From positions 1 to 52,561 of the IMG/VR virus record IMGVR_UViG_3300047560_001441: a DNA stretch of 52,561 bases; one strand, given 5' to 3'. The notes under the pieces were generated by a model. That model searched no databases. It was not told the DNA's origin and saw only the letters and a list, made by a program, of their open reading frames with translations. A program made the position numbers and the translations under genes. Of the stretch, positions 41,094 through 47,858 are shown in pieces. The stretch is from a virus. How positions within the stretch are numbered: position 1 is the first letter of the stretch; every line of letters starts with the position of its first letter.

Positions 41094-41243
41094 TATTACA
41101 ACACGTTATTTTCATTGGTTCAACACCATAAATATTCATTGACAGAGGTTTATGATATGTATCCATATGAAAGAGATCTATTTTTAGAACTACTAATGAT
41201 GCATATCAAAGAAGTACAAGAAAGAAAAGCACGTGGCGGCTAG
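41061..41243 (+). CDS. Frameshift extension of gp26 (gp51/GT-like, 60 codons)
   Basis: Read by -1 frameshift from gp26 to give a 290-residue fusion (40372-41061 joined to 41061-41243). The extension includes LVQHHKYSLTEVYDMYPYER followed by DLFLELLMMHIKEV, resembling the C-terminal motif of tail assembly chaperone extensions (lambda GT type) and gp51-like proteins of marine T4-like phages (from memory). It ends at a TAG overlapping the GTG start of the tape measure. An internal ATG at 41157 could alternatively give a 28-residue peptide. Its location between gp26 and the tape measure is the classical G-GT-tape measure arrangement. Confidence 0.8.
   Translation, partial: YVLTGYSSISVYYNTLFSLVQHHKYSLTEVYDMYPYERDLFLELLMMHIKEVQERKARGG
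41127..41134 (+). promoter_or_regulatory. Possible internal late promoter (CATAAATA)
   Basis: CATAAATA on the plus strand inside the frameshift extension, about 100 bases upstream of the tape measure start. One mismatch to consensus; it may simply encode the His-Lys-Tyr codons of the extension. Confidence 0.3.
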
Positions 41244-43632
41244 TAAATTTACCGATAAAGAATTTAAAGATTTTCTTAGAAAACAACAAGAAACTAAAGC
41301 TAGTTGGGAAGCTGCAGATGCGGCTGCTAAAAATCTTAATGATGCCGCAGAAAATATGAAACAGAATTCTAAAGAACAATCTAAAATAAGTGATGCTTTA
41401 GGTTCAATGTTCAATAATTTTAAAAATTCTTTTTCATTTGGTGGTGGAAGTTCAGGTGGTGGTAGAGGTGGTGATACTGGCGGTGTTTCTGATGGAGGTG
41501 GCGCTGGCGGCAGAAGAAACAGTGTACCCAATATTTTAAATAATATTTTAAATGTAGATAGAAGTATTTTAAGATTTACCCGAGCTAATAATGATGTATT
41601 ATTTGATATACTTGATGCTATAAGAGGTGATCAAAGACAAAAGATTGAAGAAAGAAGAGAAAGTGCTAGTAGAGCAAAAGTTACTGACAGTACAGGTGCA
41701 TCTGTTGGAAAGGCTCTTACGGGTACAGGTGATCTTTTAAGTGGCGCTGGTAATCTATTAGGTGGTCTTGGTGGTGGCCTGGGAAAACTTTTGGGTGGTG
41801 CAGGTATTGCTGCTTTTTTACTTGGTGCTGGTGATGCTGAGAAAATTAAAAAGAATATAGAAACACTTCTTTCTATTGGTGATGGATATGAAAATAGATT
41901 AGAGTTTCTAAAAGATGGTGGTACTTTAACTGCCATGTTAATTGGCATTGGCCAAGGATTGAAGTATTTTGCTATTGGTGAAGGTGCCACCGTAATAGCT
42001 GATTGGCTTTCTGGTAAACTAGGTCAAGAAAACTGGGCCGAGGGTGTTAAAAATAATATTGCAACTCTTTTATCTATTGCAGATTTACCACACACAACAG
42101 GTGATGTTGCTTGGCTTGCAACATCACTCATGGGTATTGGTGCGGGCCTAGCAGTATTTGGAATTGGTGAAGGTATAAAAGGTGGTGTAGACGGAATAGT
42201 CAAAGGCATTGATTTTCTTACTGGTGAAAACGCTGGTTGGGCTCAAAGGGTATATGATGAATTAGAAACTTTACTATCTATTGCAGAACTTCCTCATAGT
42301 AGTGATGCTGGTTGGTTAGCTGGTGCTTTAACTAAAATAGGATTGGGTCTAGCTATATTTGGTGGTGGTAAAGCTATTGAAGGGTTAAGTCAGGGATTCC
42401 AAGGTATCATTAGTTTCTTTAGTGGTGATAAGGCTGGCTGGGCTAAAAGAATATATGATGAAATGAGTGTGTTACTCTCAATAGCCGAACTTCCACATTC
42501 AGAAGATGGGGCTGTATGGTTACTCAATACTTTAGGTAACATTGGATTAGGCCTTTCTATTTTCAGTATTGGTAAAACTATAGAAGGTGTTGCAGTATCA
42601 TTTCAAAGTATAATTGGTTTCTTCAATGAAGAAAAAAGAGGATTTGCTCAAAGAATATATGATGAAGTAAAGACATTATTATCAATCAATGATCTTCCTC
42701 ACGGACAAGATGAAGGCATTGGATTTTTAAATACAATGGGCAATATTGCCCTTGGCCTTTCTATCTTTGCTGTTGGTAATACACTTGCTGGTGGTTTAAA
42801 TACAGTAAACAAAATACTTGATTTCTTCACAGGTGGAAAAGCTTTTGCTGATCAAATTTATACTCAGGTAGATAAATTATTATCTATTACTCAAATACCA
42901 GCTGCGCAAGATGGTGGTGAAAAATTTTATGCCACCATGAAAAACATTGCTGAAGGATTATTGTTATTCACTGGTTCTAATTTTGCTGCTTCTTTGGTAA
43001 ATGTAGGAACAAGCATTTTAGAATTTTTATCAGGCAAATCAAGTCCCTTTGATAAAATTAGACAACTTGCTAATGATGCAGATAAGCTAGAGAAGGGGGC
43101 CAACGCTCTACAAAAGGTTGCAAATGCACTGTCAACTTTCTCCAATATACAAACTGGTAATCTTGGAGAGATTGACTTTAAAGGTATGGCAGAAAATTTA
43201 GGTACCGCCATACCTTTGTTAAATCTTTTAGCTAAGGGTGGAGTTTTAAAAGCAAATGGTCCATTAAGTTACATTGGATTAGGTAGTGATATTGATTTTG
43301 GAAAAGGAATATTAGATCCTAGTTTGAAATTAGATCAAATGACTGCTGCCATCAGCAAAATAAATTATGTATTGGGTAGAACAACAACACTAGAACCTGT
43401 GCAAGGTAACCAATTATCTAATGCTCAACAGATCAATGGTGCAGCCACTGAAGATAAATCAGCAACACCAACAGTAATAATGCAAGGTGGTGGTCAGGGT
43501 TATCAATCACCAGTAATGACACCACCACCATTACCACCTAGAACAACAGGGGCTGTAAAGACAGCCCCTGATATTTCATTGCAAGAACGCACTATGTATG
43601 ATAAGGCGTATTTTGGTGCCGGCCACCGTTAA
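41233..43632 (+). CDS. 29: Tape measure protein, repeat-built (799 aa)
   Basis: Starts at GTG (GTGGCGGCTAGT), overlapping the stop of the gp26 extension. Residues 1-60 are helical and charged (KEFKDFLRKQQETKASWEAA), then comes a Gly-rich linker (near 68-95). Residues about 205-610 comprise six repeats of roughly 67 residues, each centred on LLSI(A/N)(D/E)LPH followed by a GLxIFxxGxxIEG stretch and a FFxG segment. A Pro-rich tail (PPPLPPRTTG) precedes the C-terminus. The tape measure identity rests on its place right after the tail chaperone frameshift gene, length and helical/hydrophobic character, corresponding to T4 gp29. It ends convergently with gene 32, sharing stop bases. Confidence 0.75.
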   Translation: MAASKFTDKEFKDFLRKQQETKASWEAADAAAKNLNDAAENMKQNSKEQSKISDALGSMFNNFKNSFSFGGGSSGGGRGGDTGGVSDGGGAGGRRNSVPNILNNILNVDRSILRFTRANNDVLFDILDAIRGDQRQKIEERRESASRAKVTDSTGASVGKALTGTGDLLSGAGNLLGGLGGGLGKLLGGAGIAAFLLGAGDAEKIKKNIETLLSIGDGYENRLEFLKDGGTLTAMLIGIGQGLKYFAIGEGATVIADWLSGKLGQENWAEGVKNNIATLLSIADLPHTTGDVAWLATSLMGIGAGLAVFGIGEGIKGGVDGIVKGIDFLTGENAGWAQRVYDELETLLSIAELPHSSDAGWLAGALTKIGLGLAIFGGGKAIEGLSQGFQGIISFFSGDKAGWAKRIYDEMSVLLSIAELPHSEDGAVWLLNTLGNIGLGLSIFSIGKTIEGVAVSFQSIIGFFNEEKRGFAQRIYDEVKTLLSINDLPHGQDEGIGFLNTMGNIALGLSIFAVGNTLAGGLNTVNKILDFFTGGKAFADQIYTQVDKLLSITQIPAAQDGGEKFYATMKNIAEGLLLFTGSNFAASLVNVGTSILEFLSGKSSPFDKIRQLANDADKLEKGANALQKVANALSTFSNIQTGNLGEIDFKGMAENLGTAIPLLNLLAKGGVLKANGPLSYIGLGSDIDFGKGILDPSLKLDQMTAAISKINYVLGRTTTLEPVQGNQLSNAQQINGAATEDKSATPTVIMQGGGQGYQSPVMTPPPLPPRTTGAVKTAPDISLQERTMYDKAYFGAGHR
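41860..43070 (+). repeat. Six about 200-bp coding repeats in tape measure
   Basis: LLSI-encoding positions recur near 41868, 42066, 42272, 42470, 42677 and 42880, a period of 198-206 bases (66-69 residues). Copies 2-5 are the most alike (WAxRVYDExxTLLSIAELPH). The sixth is diverged. Confidence 0.75.
43547..43570. terminator. GC-rich hairpin at convergent gene end
   Basis: CAGGGGCTGT-AAAG-ACAGCCCCTG: ten perfect base pairs and a four-base loop, by far the most GC-rich hairpin nearby. It lies in the last codons of the tape measure gene, 62 bases before its stop, where gene 32 converges. There is no long T run on either strand, so it may be a weak or bidirectional terminator, or an mRNA 3' stabiliser. 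Confidence 0.45.
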
Positions 43633-44600: not shown

Positions 44601-45169
44601 GAGAATTTATTTCTCAAGATACTACAATATTTATCCTTGTCATACTCAAGGAATGGATGTAGCTTCTTACAATTTAAAGCTATTTGTGGCCAAAGAACTG
44701 TGTCAGTAATTTCTTTATTCCATTTAGAAAAGAAACGGACACAATCTTGAATAATGATGAATGACTCTTTGCAGATTTTTTTGCGTGTGAGTAGAGTGAG
44801 AAGATAGGGATAGTCACCAGATTTTACTTCAAAGTTGGCATCAAAGTTTTCTAATAAATTGTCAATATCATTTTCAAATGTATATTGCATTGTTTGCTTA
44901 CGTCTAAGAAAATCATTATATTTAAATTGATGATCAACTGAAAACATATCACCAATCCACATCTTAGAATTTTCAGAAAAATTAGCTACTAAAAATGTCT
45001 TAGGATCTTCATGTTTTGAGAGCTTGTAAAACATATATTTGTCTTTACGAATCTCAAAAGAATGCTCTGATACATTTGTCTTACCATTATACTTTATATA
45101 ATCATAAGAGGAGGATGTAAAGTGATTCTTAAGAGCAACAAATAATTTATAGGCTTCAAAAGGACTCAT
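44597..45169 (-). CDS. 59: Loader of DNA helicase gp59
   Basis: 190 residues. Matches T4 gp59 in order: SPFEAYKLFVALKNHFTSSS, YDYIKYNGKTNVSEHSFEIR, KDKYMFYKLSKHEDPKTFLV, ENSKMWIGDMFSVD and the helical C-terminal half with ESFIIIQDCVRFFSKWNKEI and LHPFLEYDKDKYC. gp59 loads helicase gp41 onto gp32-covered forked DNA. It lies between gp33 and gp32 in a replication/late transcription cluster. The start overlaps the gp33 stop by four bases. Confidence 0.9.
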   Translation of the reverse strand: MSPFEAYKLFVALKNHFTSSSYDYIKYNGKTNVSEHSFEIRKDKYMFYKLSKHEDPKTFLVANFSENSKMWIGDMFSVDHQFKYNDFLRRKQTMQYTFENDIDNLLENFDANFEVKSGDYPYLLTLLTRKKICKESFIIIQDCVRFFSKWNKEITDTVLWPQIALNCKKLHPFLEYDKDKYCSILRNKFS

Positions 45170-45405
45170 ATAGGCAATCTACCAGAACGTCTCACAAGGT
45201 TTAAATTTTCTGCTTCAATTTGAATTCTTGCTTTTAATACTGTGCTCTGTTTGATGAGGGAGGCAGCAGTCTCCACTTCAATATTATTAGATTCACAATA
45301 ATGCATAACCGCATCAAAGTATGTTAAATTTTTTACTGATGCTAGCTTGTCTATTTCTTTAACAAAGTCAGCAGAAGATTTTACATTAGCAATTTTCATG
45401 AACAT
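45166..45405 (-). CDS. 33: Late promoter transcription accessory protein gp33
   Basis: 79 residues; matches short gp33 proteins of marine T4-like phages: SADFVKEIDKLASVKNLTYF, DAVMHYCESNNIEVETAASL and KARIQIEAENLNLVRRSGRL with a terminal PI. gp33 bridges RNA polymerase and the sliding clamp, co-activating transcription from TATAAATA late promoters such as those seen here. Adjacent gp59 supports the call. ATG 45405 is used; an in-frame Met two codons later is possible. Confidence 0.85.
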   Translation of the reverse strand: MFMKIANVKSSADFVKEIDKLASVKNLTYFDAVMHYCESNNIEVETAASLIKQSTVLKARIQIEAENLNLVRRSGRLPI

Positions 45406-45432
45406 TCTTTTATAATATATGTTGGTAGGATG

Positions 45433-45440
45433 TATAAATA
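45433..45440 (+). promoter_or_regulatory. Late promoter TATAAATA for GIY-YIG gene
   Basis: Perfect late consensus on the plus strand, 66 bases before the endonuclease ATG. The leader would include the hairpin at 45453-45480 and an AAAGGAG ribosome site at 45492-45498. Confidence 0.6.
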
Positions 45441-45452
45441 TATTTGTATTGT

Positions 45453-45480
45453 GTTAGTCGCGGATGGCCGTCCCACTAAC
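45453..45480 (+). promoter_or_regulatory. Hairpin in endonuclease leader
   Basis: GTTAGT (45453-45458) pairs perfectly with ACTAAC (45475-45480). The interior can add a GGA/TCC stem around GGCC. It is markedly GC-richer than its surroundings. It could modulate expression of the endonuclease, or act on the minus strand as a terminator/insulator upstream of gp33. Confidence 0.45.
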
Positions 45481-45506
45481 TCTAAATCTGTAAAGGAGAT
45501 TCAGCT

Positions 45507-46001
45507 ATGAACAAACATCATTATACCGGCTATATTTATATTTGGCAAGATACAATTGCAAAATTGTATTATGTAGGTGGCCATTTTGGTAAAGTAGAAG
45601 ATTCATATATTTGTTCTAATAAACCAATGAAGAGAGCATATAAGTTAAGACCTCATACTTTTAAATTTAGAGTGTTAGAATATGTGTTTGGTGATACTAA
45701 AGATTTAAGAATTAAAGAACAAAGATGGCTTAATATGATAAAAGATAGCGAACTGCTTTTATCTGAGAATGTTTTAAATAGAACAGCACGTTATTATAAT
45801 GTTAAGAAAAACGCTGCTGGTGGAAATGGTTTAGGTACAAATAAAGGTAAGTCTACTATAGGTGGTTGGAATAGAGGTCTTAAAGGTGTTCAACTTTACT
45901 CTGATCAAACTAGAAAAAAAATGTCTGATAAAAAGAAAGAATACTGGGCTAGGAAAAAAGGTGAGCCCGTTCTGTTTCTAGGTGGAGCTCATACCCAATG
46001 A
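45507..46001 (+). CDS. GIY-YIG homing endonuclease (164 aa)
   Basis: The GIY-YIG core is present: YTGYIYIWQD (GIY part, residues 6-15), YYVGGHFGK (YIG part, 21-29), and the catalytic Glu of IKEQRWLNMI (Glu71). The C-terminal half has the lysine/glycine-rich DNA-binding layout of NUMOD3-type modules (NKGKSTIGGWNRGLKG, YSDQTRKKMSDKKKEYW). Such free-standing enzymes copy themselves into related phages. It lies on the strand opposite its neighbours, between gp33 and a tmRNA gene, and its last codons are antisense to the tmRNA 3' region. It has its own late promoter, and AAGGAG is its ribosome site. Confidence 0.85.
   Translation: MNKHHYTGYIYIWQDTIAKLYYVGGHFGKVEDSYICSNKPMKRAYKLRPHTFKFRVLEYVFGDTKDLRIKEQRWLNMIKDSELLLSENVLNRTARYYNVKKNAAGGNGLGTNKGKSTIGGWNRGLKGVQLYSDQTRKKMSDKKKEYWARKKGEPVLFLGGAHTQ
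45954..45995 (-). terminator. Rho-independent-like terminator of tmRNA
   Basis: On the minus strand GGT(AT)GAGC pairs with GCTCACC across a 20-base loop, and the right arm is followed immediately by TTTTTT (45959-45954). It lies just downstream of the tag ORF and overlaps, antisense, the end of the endonuclease gene. Confidence 0.5.
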
Positions 46002-46003
46002 GA

Positions 46004-46048
46004 TCAAGCCGCTAGGCGAGATTCAAATGGAGCGTTATCATTCGCTGC
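46004..46048 (-). CDS. tmRNA proteolysis tag (AANDNAPFESRLAA)
   Basis: Fourteen codons plus TGA inside the tmRNA coding piece. Starts at the resume codon GCA (46048-46046). The AANDN start is like alphaproteobacterial tags, and the end LAA is the standard ClpXP degron. It is translated only by ribosomes switched from a stalled mRNA, so it has no ribosome site or ATG. Confidence 0.85.
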   Translation of the reverse strand, partial: AANDNAPFESRLAA

Positions 46049-46117
46049 ATTTACGAGTTTGCTTCAGTCTCGATCTTGTCTTTACTACACCTGTCGATCC
46101 TATTTCACCCCCATCAA

Positions 46118-46168
46118 AGATACACCAGCCTGGCCAGCTTTCGTATTAAATACTATAATGGTGTATCT
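46118..46168 (-). other. tmRNA internal spacer with 10-bp stem
   Basis: AGATACACCA and TGGTGTATCT form a perfect stem enclosing a 31-base loop between the CCA end and the 5' acceptor strand. In permuted tmRNAs this spacer is removed to yield two RNA pieces. Confidence 0.75.
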
Positions 46169-46242
46169 ATGGTGGAGGCGGAGGGTATCGCACCCTCGTC
46201 CAGTATGTCTATTCCACTAGATGTCAACAACATCAGCAATTA

Positions 46243-46250
46243 TATTTATA
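46243..46250 (-). promoter_or_regulatory. Late promoter TATAAATA of tmRNA
   Basis: Perfect late consensus on the minus strand. A start six bases downstream gives G46237, immediately before a GATGT/ACATC hairpin (46234-46220) that would cap the 5' end of the acceptor piece. Confidence 0.7.
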
Positions 46251-46269
46251 GTATGAAATTAAATAAAAA

Positions 46270-46422
46270 TCAACGTTTCTTTTTAACAGAAGAACCTTTC
46301 CACTTAGACCCTCCTGATTTTTTCCATTTAGTTTTACCGTTAGATTTTACTTTACTAAATGTAGAAGATCCTTTTTTATTTTTTACAACTTTAGTATTTT
46401 TTGATTTAAATAAATTAAACAT
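46270..46422 (-). CDS. 50-residue highly basic protein
   Basis: Starts MFNLFKSKNTKVVKNKKGSS and ends SSVKKKR. It has 17 lysines and one arginine in 50 residues, no Asp or Glu, and two Trp in repeated (K/S)KWK contexts. The ATG overlaps the end of the exonuclease gene (AATGTTTAA), with AGACAGG upstream as ribosome site, so it is translationally coupled. It is probably a nucleic-acid- or RNA-binding peptide; no family is recognised. It lies between the exonuclease and the tmRNA promoter. Confidence 0.65.
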   Translation of the reverse strand: MFNLFKSKNTKVVKNKKGSSTFSKVKSNGKTKWKKSGGSKWKGSSVKKKR

Positions 46423-47119
46423 TATACCTGTCTCTGTATTGTTGTCTTACATCCATCAATTGTTTAATGTAGAGATCTCGACGTTCTTCAAAGTATTGAG
46501 GTTCTTCATTATCAACTGAAATAAGAATTACAATTCTATTAATGGGTATATTATATCTTTCTTCAAACATAACAGCATAGGCAGAAGCTTGACAAAAGTA
46601 ATTTGTAATGTATTCTCTGTTCTTATGTTTTCTGGAGGTCTTAAAGTCAATGATTGACAACTTACCCTTCCACTCAGCCACACAATCCACTGTACCCGCC
46701 ATTTGTAGATAATCAGAATATAGTCTGGTTTCTTGAACATACACATTATCAATGTTAGTATCAATTAGAGGTTTGATAGCTTGAAAATTGAGAGTATCAT
46801 TAAAACTATATTTGTCAGTATCAATCTCAGCATTATCAATATAGTTTTCTAGTAGCTGATGTATTCGTGTTCCACGAGTTGCAGCTGTTGAACTAATTCT
46901 ATTAGCCTCTTCTTCACCAACCCGTCTGCGCCATTGTTGAATAGCCTTCTCACTCATTAATCCAGTAACAGTAGTTACTGAAGGATAGGTAGCACCGGTA
47001 GGTGTCTTATAGTACCTACCGGTTTCAGTGTTTACTTGTTCTAGTATTACTTCATTCTCAGGGATCTTTTTGAGATGTGTGAAGTGCTTGCGTTGGGCTA
47101 AAATGTCCTTGAGATGCAT
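46415..47119 (-). CDS. PD-(D/E)XK exonuclease, RecB/Cas4-like (234 aa)
   Basis: Nuclease motifs in order: GTRIHQLLENYI with His87, VQETRLYSDYLQMAGTVDCV with Glu130 and Asp145, LSIIDFKTSRK with Asp158 and Lys160, and QASAYAVMFEE (Gln177, Tyr181). This is the RecB/lambda-exonuclease-like metal-binding core. It probably takes part in DNA processing, recombination or host DNA degradation. ATG 47119 is chosen; the longer reading to 47140 would need a TTG start. Overlap with the end of PhoH is 62 bases, unusually long for this region. The N-terminal 45 residues (YYKTPTGATYPSVTTVTGLM) are typical of phage versions. Confidence 0.85.
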   Translation of the reverse strand: MHLKDILAQRKHFTHLKKIPENEVILEQVNTETGRYYKTPTGATYPSVTTVTGLMSEKAIQQWRRRVGEEEANRISSTAATRGTRIHQLLENYIDNAEIDTDKYSFNDTLNFQAIKPLIDTNIDNVYVQETRLYSDYLQMAGTVDCVAEWKGKLSIIDFKTSRKHKNREYITNYFCQASAYAVMFEERYNIPINRIVILISVDNEEPQYFEERRDLYIKQLMDVRQQYRDRYNV

Positions 47120-47858
47120 TGTGTAATATTCCGGTTTCAATCATATTCTTTTTAATTATAAAGTCTTTAACAAGCCCGGATCTTACAATATCATTTTCTA
47201 CAAATTCAATGCAAGAGAAATACTTAGGCATCTTAGAAAGGATCTTCATGAACTTATGAATACCTTCTCTTTCATCATCCCATTTTAGATCAGTCTGTCT
47301 ATAATCTCCACAGAAAATAATCTTACTGTTGTGACCAACTCTTGTGATGATTGTATTTAATTCTTGATATGTCATATTTTGACATTCGTCGACAATTATA
47401 ATTGTATTGTCAAGAGTGAGACCTCTTAGGAATGATGATGTCTCAAAATTAATAATGCCTTTTTGTTTTAGTATTTCGTAGGCATCGCCTCTGTTATAAA
47501 GTTCATTACAGATGGCTTGGTAAGGGGCTTCATATACTTTGGATTTTTCTTTTATTGAACCTGGTAGGAAACCCATATCTCGGGAAGGGACTACGGAGCG
47601 AATTATTGTGACACTATTATAATCTCTATACTCTTCTAGTTCTGATAAAGAGAGGTAGAGGGAAATAAAAGATTTACCTGTACCTGGAAGACCATGAATG
47701 AGGAGATTTTTACCGTTGATAAATTCTTTGAATACTTTTTCCTGGTTTAGTGTCTTTGGTGTTATTGTTTTTAGTTCGAGGTTATTCTTTGTTTGTTTTT
47801 GCTCCTGACGCTTTTGTTGTTTAATTAGTCTCTTTTCAGCGCGAGATAGTCTTTCCAT
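47058..47858 (-). CDS. phoH: PhoH-like ATPase (266 aa)
   Basis: P-loop protein: Walker A GLPGTGKS at residues 56-63, then VTIIRSVVPSRDMGFLPGSI, Walker B TIIIVDECQNMT, and the PhoH signature GHNSKIIFCGDYRQTDL. PhoH ATPases are widespread in marine phages; the role may be in RNA handling or stress, and the substrate is not certain. The start ATG at 47858 has AAGAGG seven bases upstream and does not overlap the preceding gene; the longer GTG start at 47900 is less likely. The N-terminus is Lys/Arg/Gln-rich. Confidence 0.9.
   Translation of the reverse strand: MERLSRAEKRLIKQQKRQEQKQTKNNLELKTITPKTLNQEKVFKEFINGKNLLIHGLPGTGKSFISLYLSLSELEEYRDYNSVTIIRSVVPSRDMGFLPGSIKEKSKVYEAPYQAICNELYNRGDAYEILKQKGIINFETSSFLRGLTLDNTIIIVDECQNMTYQELNTIITRVGHNSKIIFCGDYRQTDLKWDDEREGIHKFMKILSKMPKYFSCIEFVENDIVRSGLVKDFIIKKNMIETGILHNASQGHFSPTQALHTSQKDP

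Follow-up and report, generated by a model that had tools for sequence, protein, structure and literature searches.

A permuted tmRNA gene in T4-like viruses, met at its 3' end by a GIY-YIG endonuclease gene

The window, meaning the whole stretch of DNA analysed here, is a 52.6-kb virus record from an environmental sample. Its genes include gp32, the gp59 helicase loader, the gp33 coactivator, PhoH, a PD-(D/E)XK exonuclease, baseplate genes and a DNA end protector, a T4-like set that bears out the initial annotation, made from the sequence alone, in which the genome was described as T4-like. For a 799-aa open reading frame adjoining gp32 (41233-43632, plus strand), neither PHROGs nor Pfam gives a match at E 0.001. 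Between the genes for the exonuclease and gp33 lie a tmRNA gene with its own promoter and, on the opposite strand, a gene for a free-standing GIY-YIG endonuclease (Table 1).

Table 1. Features between and including the exonuclease and gp33 genes of the window
Feature	Position	Strand	Basis
PD-(D/E)XK exonuclease, upstream neighbour	46415..47140	-	PHROG 298, E 5.2e-74
Sigma-70-type promoter	46245..46273	-	TTGATT (46273-46268), 17 nt, TATAAA (46250-46245)
tmRNA first piece (T-arm, acceptor 3' strand, CCA)	46170..46232	-	RF04321/RF01849 alignments and sequence; 5' end approximate
CCA end of first piece	46172-46170	-	Read from sequence
Intervening spacer, 57 nt	46113..46169	-	Sequence; stem covaries in relatives
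tmRNA second piece (acceptor 5' strand, D-loop-like, tag, 3' hairpin)	45960..46112	-	Rfam alignments
Tag frame AANDNAPFESRLAA and stop TGA	46004..46048	-	ARAGORN; viral tag codons apparently under purifying constraint
Terminal hairpin TGAGCTC/GGGCTCA and T-run	45954..45991	-	Pairing kept despite changes in relatives
GIY-YIG free-standing homing endonuclease gene	45507..46001	+	PHROG 314, E 2.2e-9
gp33-like late-transcription coactivator, downstream neighbour	45166..45405	-	PF16805, E 8.6e-17

Independent programs agree on the tmRNA. ARAGORN calls a permuted form (tmRNA*) at 45913-46262 on the minus strand and reads the same tag, which has an AA-type end. The Rfam model RF01849 (alpha_tmRNA; gathering cut-off 50 bits) matches 46273-45960 (-) with 100.5 bits (E 2.4e-26) over the complete model, positions 1-355, and RF04321 (tmRNA_permuted; cut-off 47) scores 98.3 bits (E 5.5e-18). 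The interval 46273-45960 (-) is a complete circularly permuted alpha-type tmRNA gene, and the phage-encoded two-piece tmRNA that the initial annotation proposed is confirmed. Read directly, the first piece has the T-stem GAGGG/CCCTC and the acceptor 3' strand CGCCTCC, followed by ACCA. A stem of 10 perfect base pairs, AGATACACCA/TGGTGTATCT (46168-46159 with 46127-46118), closes the spacer, and beyond the spacer the acceptor 5' strand GGGGGTG (46112-46106) forms seven pairs across the spacer, among them the G3:U70 pair that marks alanine identity. The D-loop-like GGATCGACAGG at 46100-46090, the tag of 14 codons with its TGA and a terminal hairpin (45991-45985 with 45968-45962) complete the gene; every part listed in the first reading is where that reading had placed it. 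The hairpin and its T-run are a possible terminator; a terminator scan did not report the hairpin, because its loop is long.

Permuted tmRNAs in phages are already known as a kind. Among the phages with published two-piece tmRNAs are the pelagiphage Mosig and the OM43 methylophage Melnitz, and a 2021 survey counts 53 unique phage two-piece structures (PMC9004378). Mosig (EXVC030M) and Melnitz likewise are T4-like aquatic phages with a permuted alpha-type tmRNA (PMC9004378), and the Mosig record, which annotates SsrA, has the order exonuclease, tmRNA, gp33 seen in the window. The Mosig tag, GEDNFALAA, differs from AANDNAPFESRLAA, and the window, unlike Mosig and Melnitz, has a GIY-YIG gene between tmRNA and gp33. 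A glutamine riboswitch has been reported for both of these phages; in the window no such Rfam match exists in 45400-46500 up to E 5, and a T-box match in the same interval is far below cut-off. With the alphaproteobacterial members of RF01849 and RF04321 the window shares the order of parts, the acceptor formed across the spacer, G3:U70, the tag frame and an AACAGAA loop in the terminal hairpin. Its RF01849 score of 100 bits is below the roughly 140-310 of the sampled bacteria. In the middle region of the model, which includes the pseudoknot, the window is partly gapped, about 20 positions after the D-region being missing from the alignment. One class of SAR11-like bacteria also deviates in the middle region.

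The gene is a constant feature in this group of viruses. Searching with the exonuclease protein yielded 29 viral contigs, one of them (L239) being the same sequence as the window; of the others, 20 span the whole interval from exonuclease to gp33, and in all 20, some of them near-duplicates, ARAGORN or the covariance model detects a tmRNA. The sporadic occurrence suggested by ARAGORN is an artefact: the covariance model recovers 14 relatives that ARAGORN missed (L240, L242, L243, L245, L246, L249, L250, L252, L255, L256, L257, L263, L264 and L265). Since ARAGORN misses tmRNAs that the Rfam models detect, phage tmRNA surveys based on it will undercount. The structure is not a chance fold, because relatives retain pairing through changes on both strands of the acceptor, T-stem, spacer stem and terminal stem, a comparison that used the best match per sequence and is firmest for the acceptor and T-stem. 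The most striking compensatory change is the acceptor GGGCCGG/CCTGGCC of L246, in which G3:U70 is unchanged. Among 168 collected viral permuted tmRNAs, 161 have G:U at pair 3; at pair 6, 105 have C-G and 56 have U-A. The first of two loose DNA pattern scans for tmRNA also picked up standard tmRNAs among the matches listed, and the matches listed by either scan are no measure of prevalence. The gene is mosaic and offers about 140 informative positions, which would not support an RNA phylogeny. The tag frame, too, appears to be under purifying constraint: single-base differences in tag codons, counted over non-independent pairs of near-identical viral tag frames, comprise 84 synonymous and 33 nonsynonymous changes, the expected synonymous fraction being 0.227.

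Upstream of the tmRNA the motif TTGA(C/T)-17-TATAAA recurs in nearly all clade members at fixed spacing and at a fixed distance from the gene. The sequence TATAAATA occupies the -10 position in 17 of 19 clade members and is also compatible with a T4 late box. A T4 late promoter as the sole promoter was discarded, since TATAAATA shows no enrichment in the window (7 occurrences against 9.9 expected) and the -35 box is conserved at the exact 17-nt spacing. The upstream element is of sigma-70, early type, and so does not favour the role late in infection that the initial annotation had suggested. The -35 box and the end of the exonuclease gene are overlapped by a very basic 50-aa open reading frame (46270-46422, minus strand); short frames resembling it occur in several relatives.

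Taken together with established tmRNA biology, from which activity is extrapolated, the sequence, structure, constraint and conserved position of the gene make it very probable that this is a functional, trans-translating tmRNA. It would be transcribed from its own sigma-70-type promoter, the spacer would be excised by host tRNA-processing enzymes, and the two pieces would be held together by the acceptor and P2 stems. Host AlaRS would charge the RNA with alanine, and, bound to host SmpB, it would during infection rescue ribosomes that have stalled on broken mRNAs, AANDNAPFESRLAA being added to the stalled products as an LAA-type degradation tag. No SmpB was found in 10 viral records, which may be fragments, so that a phage-encoded SmpB was set aside and use of the host protein is most likely; for ordinary ribosome rescue the tmRNA most likely relies on the SmpB, AlaRS and ClpXP of its host. 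The initial annotation also considered that a special tag may redirect proteins; most viral tags are AA-type with LAA-like ends, which predicts ordinary proteolysis.

The viral tags are at the same time diverse, unlike the uniform tags of the sampled bacterial orders. This diversity would fit a phage tmRNA that mainly competes with that of the host, titrating SmpB or overriding the host tag and thereby altering the fate of the products, and there is a precedent in phage DS6A, whose tmRNA lacks a tag frame and inhibits the endogenous tmRNA (PMC11915505; PMC4131195). We consider such a role unlikely, since a tag frame that is kept, seemingly constrained and mostly LAA-like at its end gives the RNA the look of a complete trans-translator and not of an inhibitor. 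That the gene was recently captured from a host genome and has no function, as the bacterial origin of permuted tmRNAs and the match to an alphaproteobacterial family might suggest, is scarcely credible given its fixed position across the group, covarying helices, constrained tags and conserved promoter.

The tag does not reveal the host. The SAR11 host assumed in the initial annotation is no more than a candidate. A bacterial order that is SAR11-like in genome size and GC only has uniform tags, ANDNRLALAA/ANDNELALAA, from which that of the window differs. Identification of a host by tag match was abandoned because the tags of the sampled bacterial orders do not match. A SAR11-like genome assembly (L424; G320 contig C33) contains several tmRNA matches, one with the tag ANESYALAA; as this tag is identical to that of five viral contigs, the contig probably belongs to a phage and ended up in the bacterial bin.

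The GIY-YIG gene converges on the tmRNA gene, with an overlap of about 40 nt at the tmRNA 3' hairpin. This overlap, like the mosaicism described below, had escaped the initial annotation. The protein has the motif GYIYIW..LYYVGG and the conserved Arg and Glu of the GIY-YIG catalytic domain besides its match to PHROG 314; Pfam GIY-YIG gives a weak match in one homolog (E 0.018). The predicted fold (mean pLDDT 67, about 80 in the catalytic part) is closest to the catalytic domain of I-TevI (1ln0; E 2.3e-3, probability 1.0). Searching viral contigs with the protein alone gives 24 loci, and a permuted tmRNA lies convergent at the 3' end of the gene in 21 of 21 close homologs, defined by at least 64% identity in the best segment, counted only where sequence continues past the gene's 3' end, and forming 12 clusters at 97% identity (L455 was scored from L240, the same contig). 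In several homologs the endonuclease ends within the tmRNA hairpin, its stop codon coming from the antisense of the hairpin loop. Distant homologs, with less than 48% identity, occur in Sinorhizobium and Rhizobium phages; those examined adjoin other genes. In L245, L250 and L252 gp33 directly follows the tmRNA and the endonuclease is absent, so that the gene, like those of Seg type, is intergenic, present in some alleles and missing from others at the same place. The copy in L468 is frameshifted. Most of the tags linked with the endonuclease (L452-L466) are extended at the N-terminus and end in MK(I/V)AA, which sets them apart from the usual ANDN...ALAA; those of the window and L468 are not of this type.

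There are parallels in T4, where SegB-type enzymes are likewise intergenic GIY-YIG endonucleases beside small structured RNA genes (PMC2988022, PMC13096335). Homing with co-conversion is known from T4 (PMC2988022), and the related homing of SegB takes place at tRNA genes (PMC13096335). Several endonuclease homologs (L456-L467) have tRNA-Arg(tct) on one side and the tmRNA on the other, recalling T4 segB beside tRNA-Arg. Unlike SegB, the window gene has as its neighbour a tmRNA, convergent and overlapping, and is a candidate homing enzyme known from sequence; the SegB paper does not mention tmRNA (PMC13096335). An endonuclease gene is also linked with a tmRNA gene in the case of group I introns (PMC11915505), where it sits inside an intron within the tmRNA, whereas that of the window stands free, downstream of a permuted tmRNA and in antisense orientation to it. 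Among the titles and abstracts searched in the open-access literature, none connects a phage tmRNA to a free-standing homing endonuclease. The overlap of the endonuclease with the tmRNA end, together with patchwork tmRNAs bearing different tags in relatives, looks new.

The patchwork arises from the exchange of tag/3' modules and of spacers among relatives, and one breakpoint, immediately ahead of the tag, is clean. L240 equals L247 without mismatch, except for a 3-nt insert and one base, over the acceptor strand, the whole spacer and the stretch leading up to the tag. From the tag onwards L240 has an L261-like tag and 3' end (93% vs 48% identity), followed by an L261-like endonuclease with 86% nucleotide identity, compared with 67-71% for gp33 and gp59; phoH and gp59 of L240 are L247-like. 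L255, L256 and L258 have a common spacer and different tags, and at least six tag types occur among phages whose exonucleases are more than 60% identical.

Mosaicism and adjacency are observed facts; it may be, at somewhat less than an even chance, that the endonuclease has caused part of the former. A SegB-like GIY-YIG enzyme that spreads from phage to phage in co-infections, with the tmRNA 3' end as its site, would drag the adjacent tag/3' module along by co-conversion, and this would explain part of the mosaicism in the relatives. The broader proposal that a dedicated homing-endonuclease subfamily is at home in the phage tmRNA gene and swaps tags as a mobile cassette is equally tentative. 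A point against homing is that the window tag is not of the MK(I/V)AA kind common beside the other homologs. About evenly balanced is the chance that the mosaic reflects ordinary homologous recombination at conserved blocks during co-infection, the endonuclease being a passenger. Conserved blocks flanking the tag would provide the homology, and ordinary recombination clearly contributes, because spacers move without the endonuclease, as in L255, L256 and L258. It accounts less readily for the imported module of L240, which arrives with an L261-like endonuclease, and for the confinement of close endonuclease homologs to this one place. The association of endonuclease and tmRNA could also be a single old insertion, vertically inherited.

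This group makes the question of why lytic phages carry their own tmRNA a testable one, because the tmRNA is present in every complete relative, its promoter is of early type, and its tags appear constrained yet are diverse. If the link with the endonuclease holds, the picture drawn for SegB, in which homing enzymes move or amplify small RNA genes that aid phages against tRNA-targeting defences, would extend from tRNAs to tmRNA, and gene conversion would explain the diversity of the tags.
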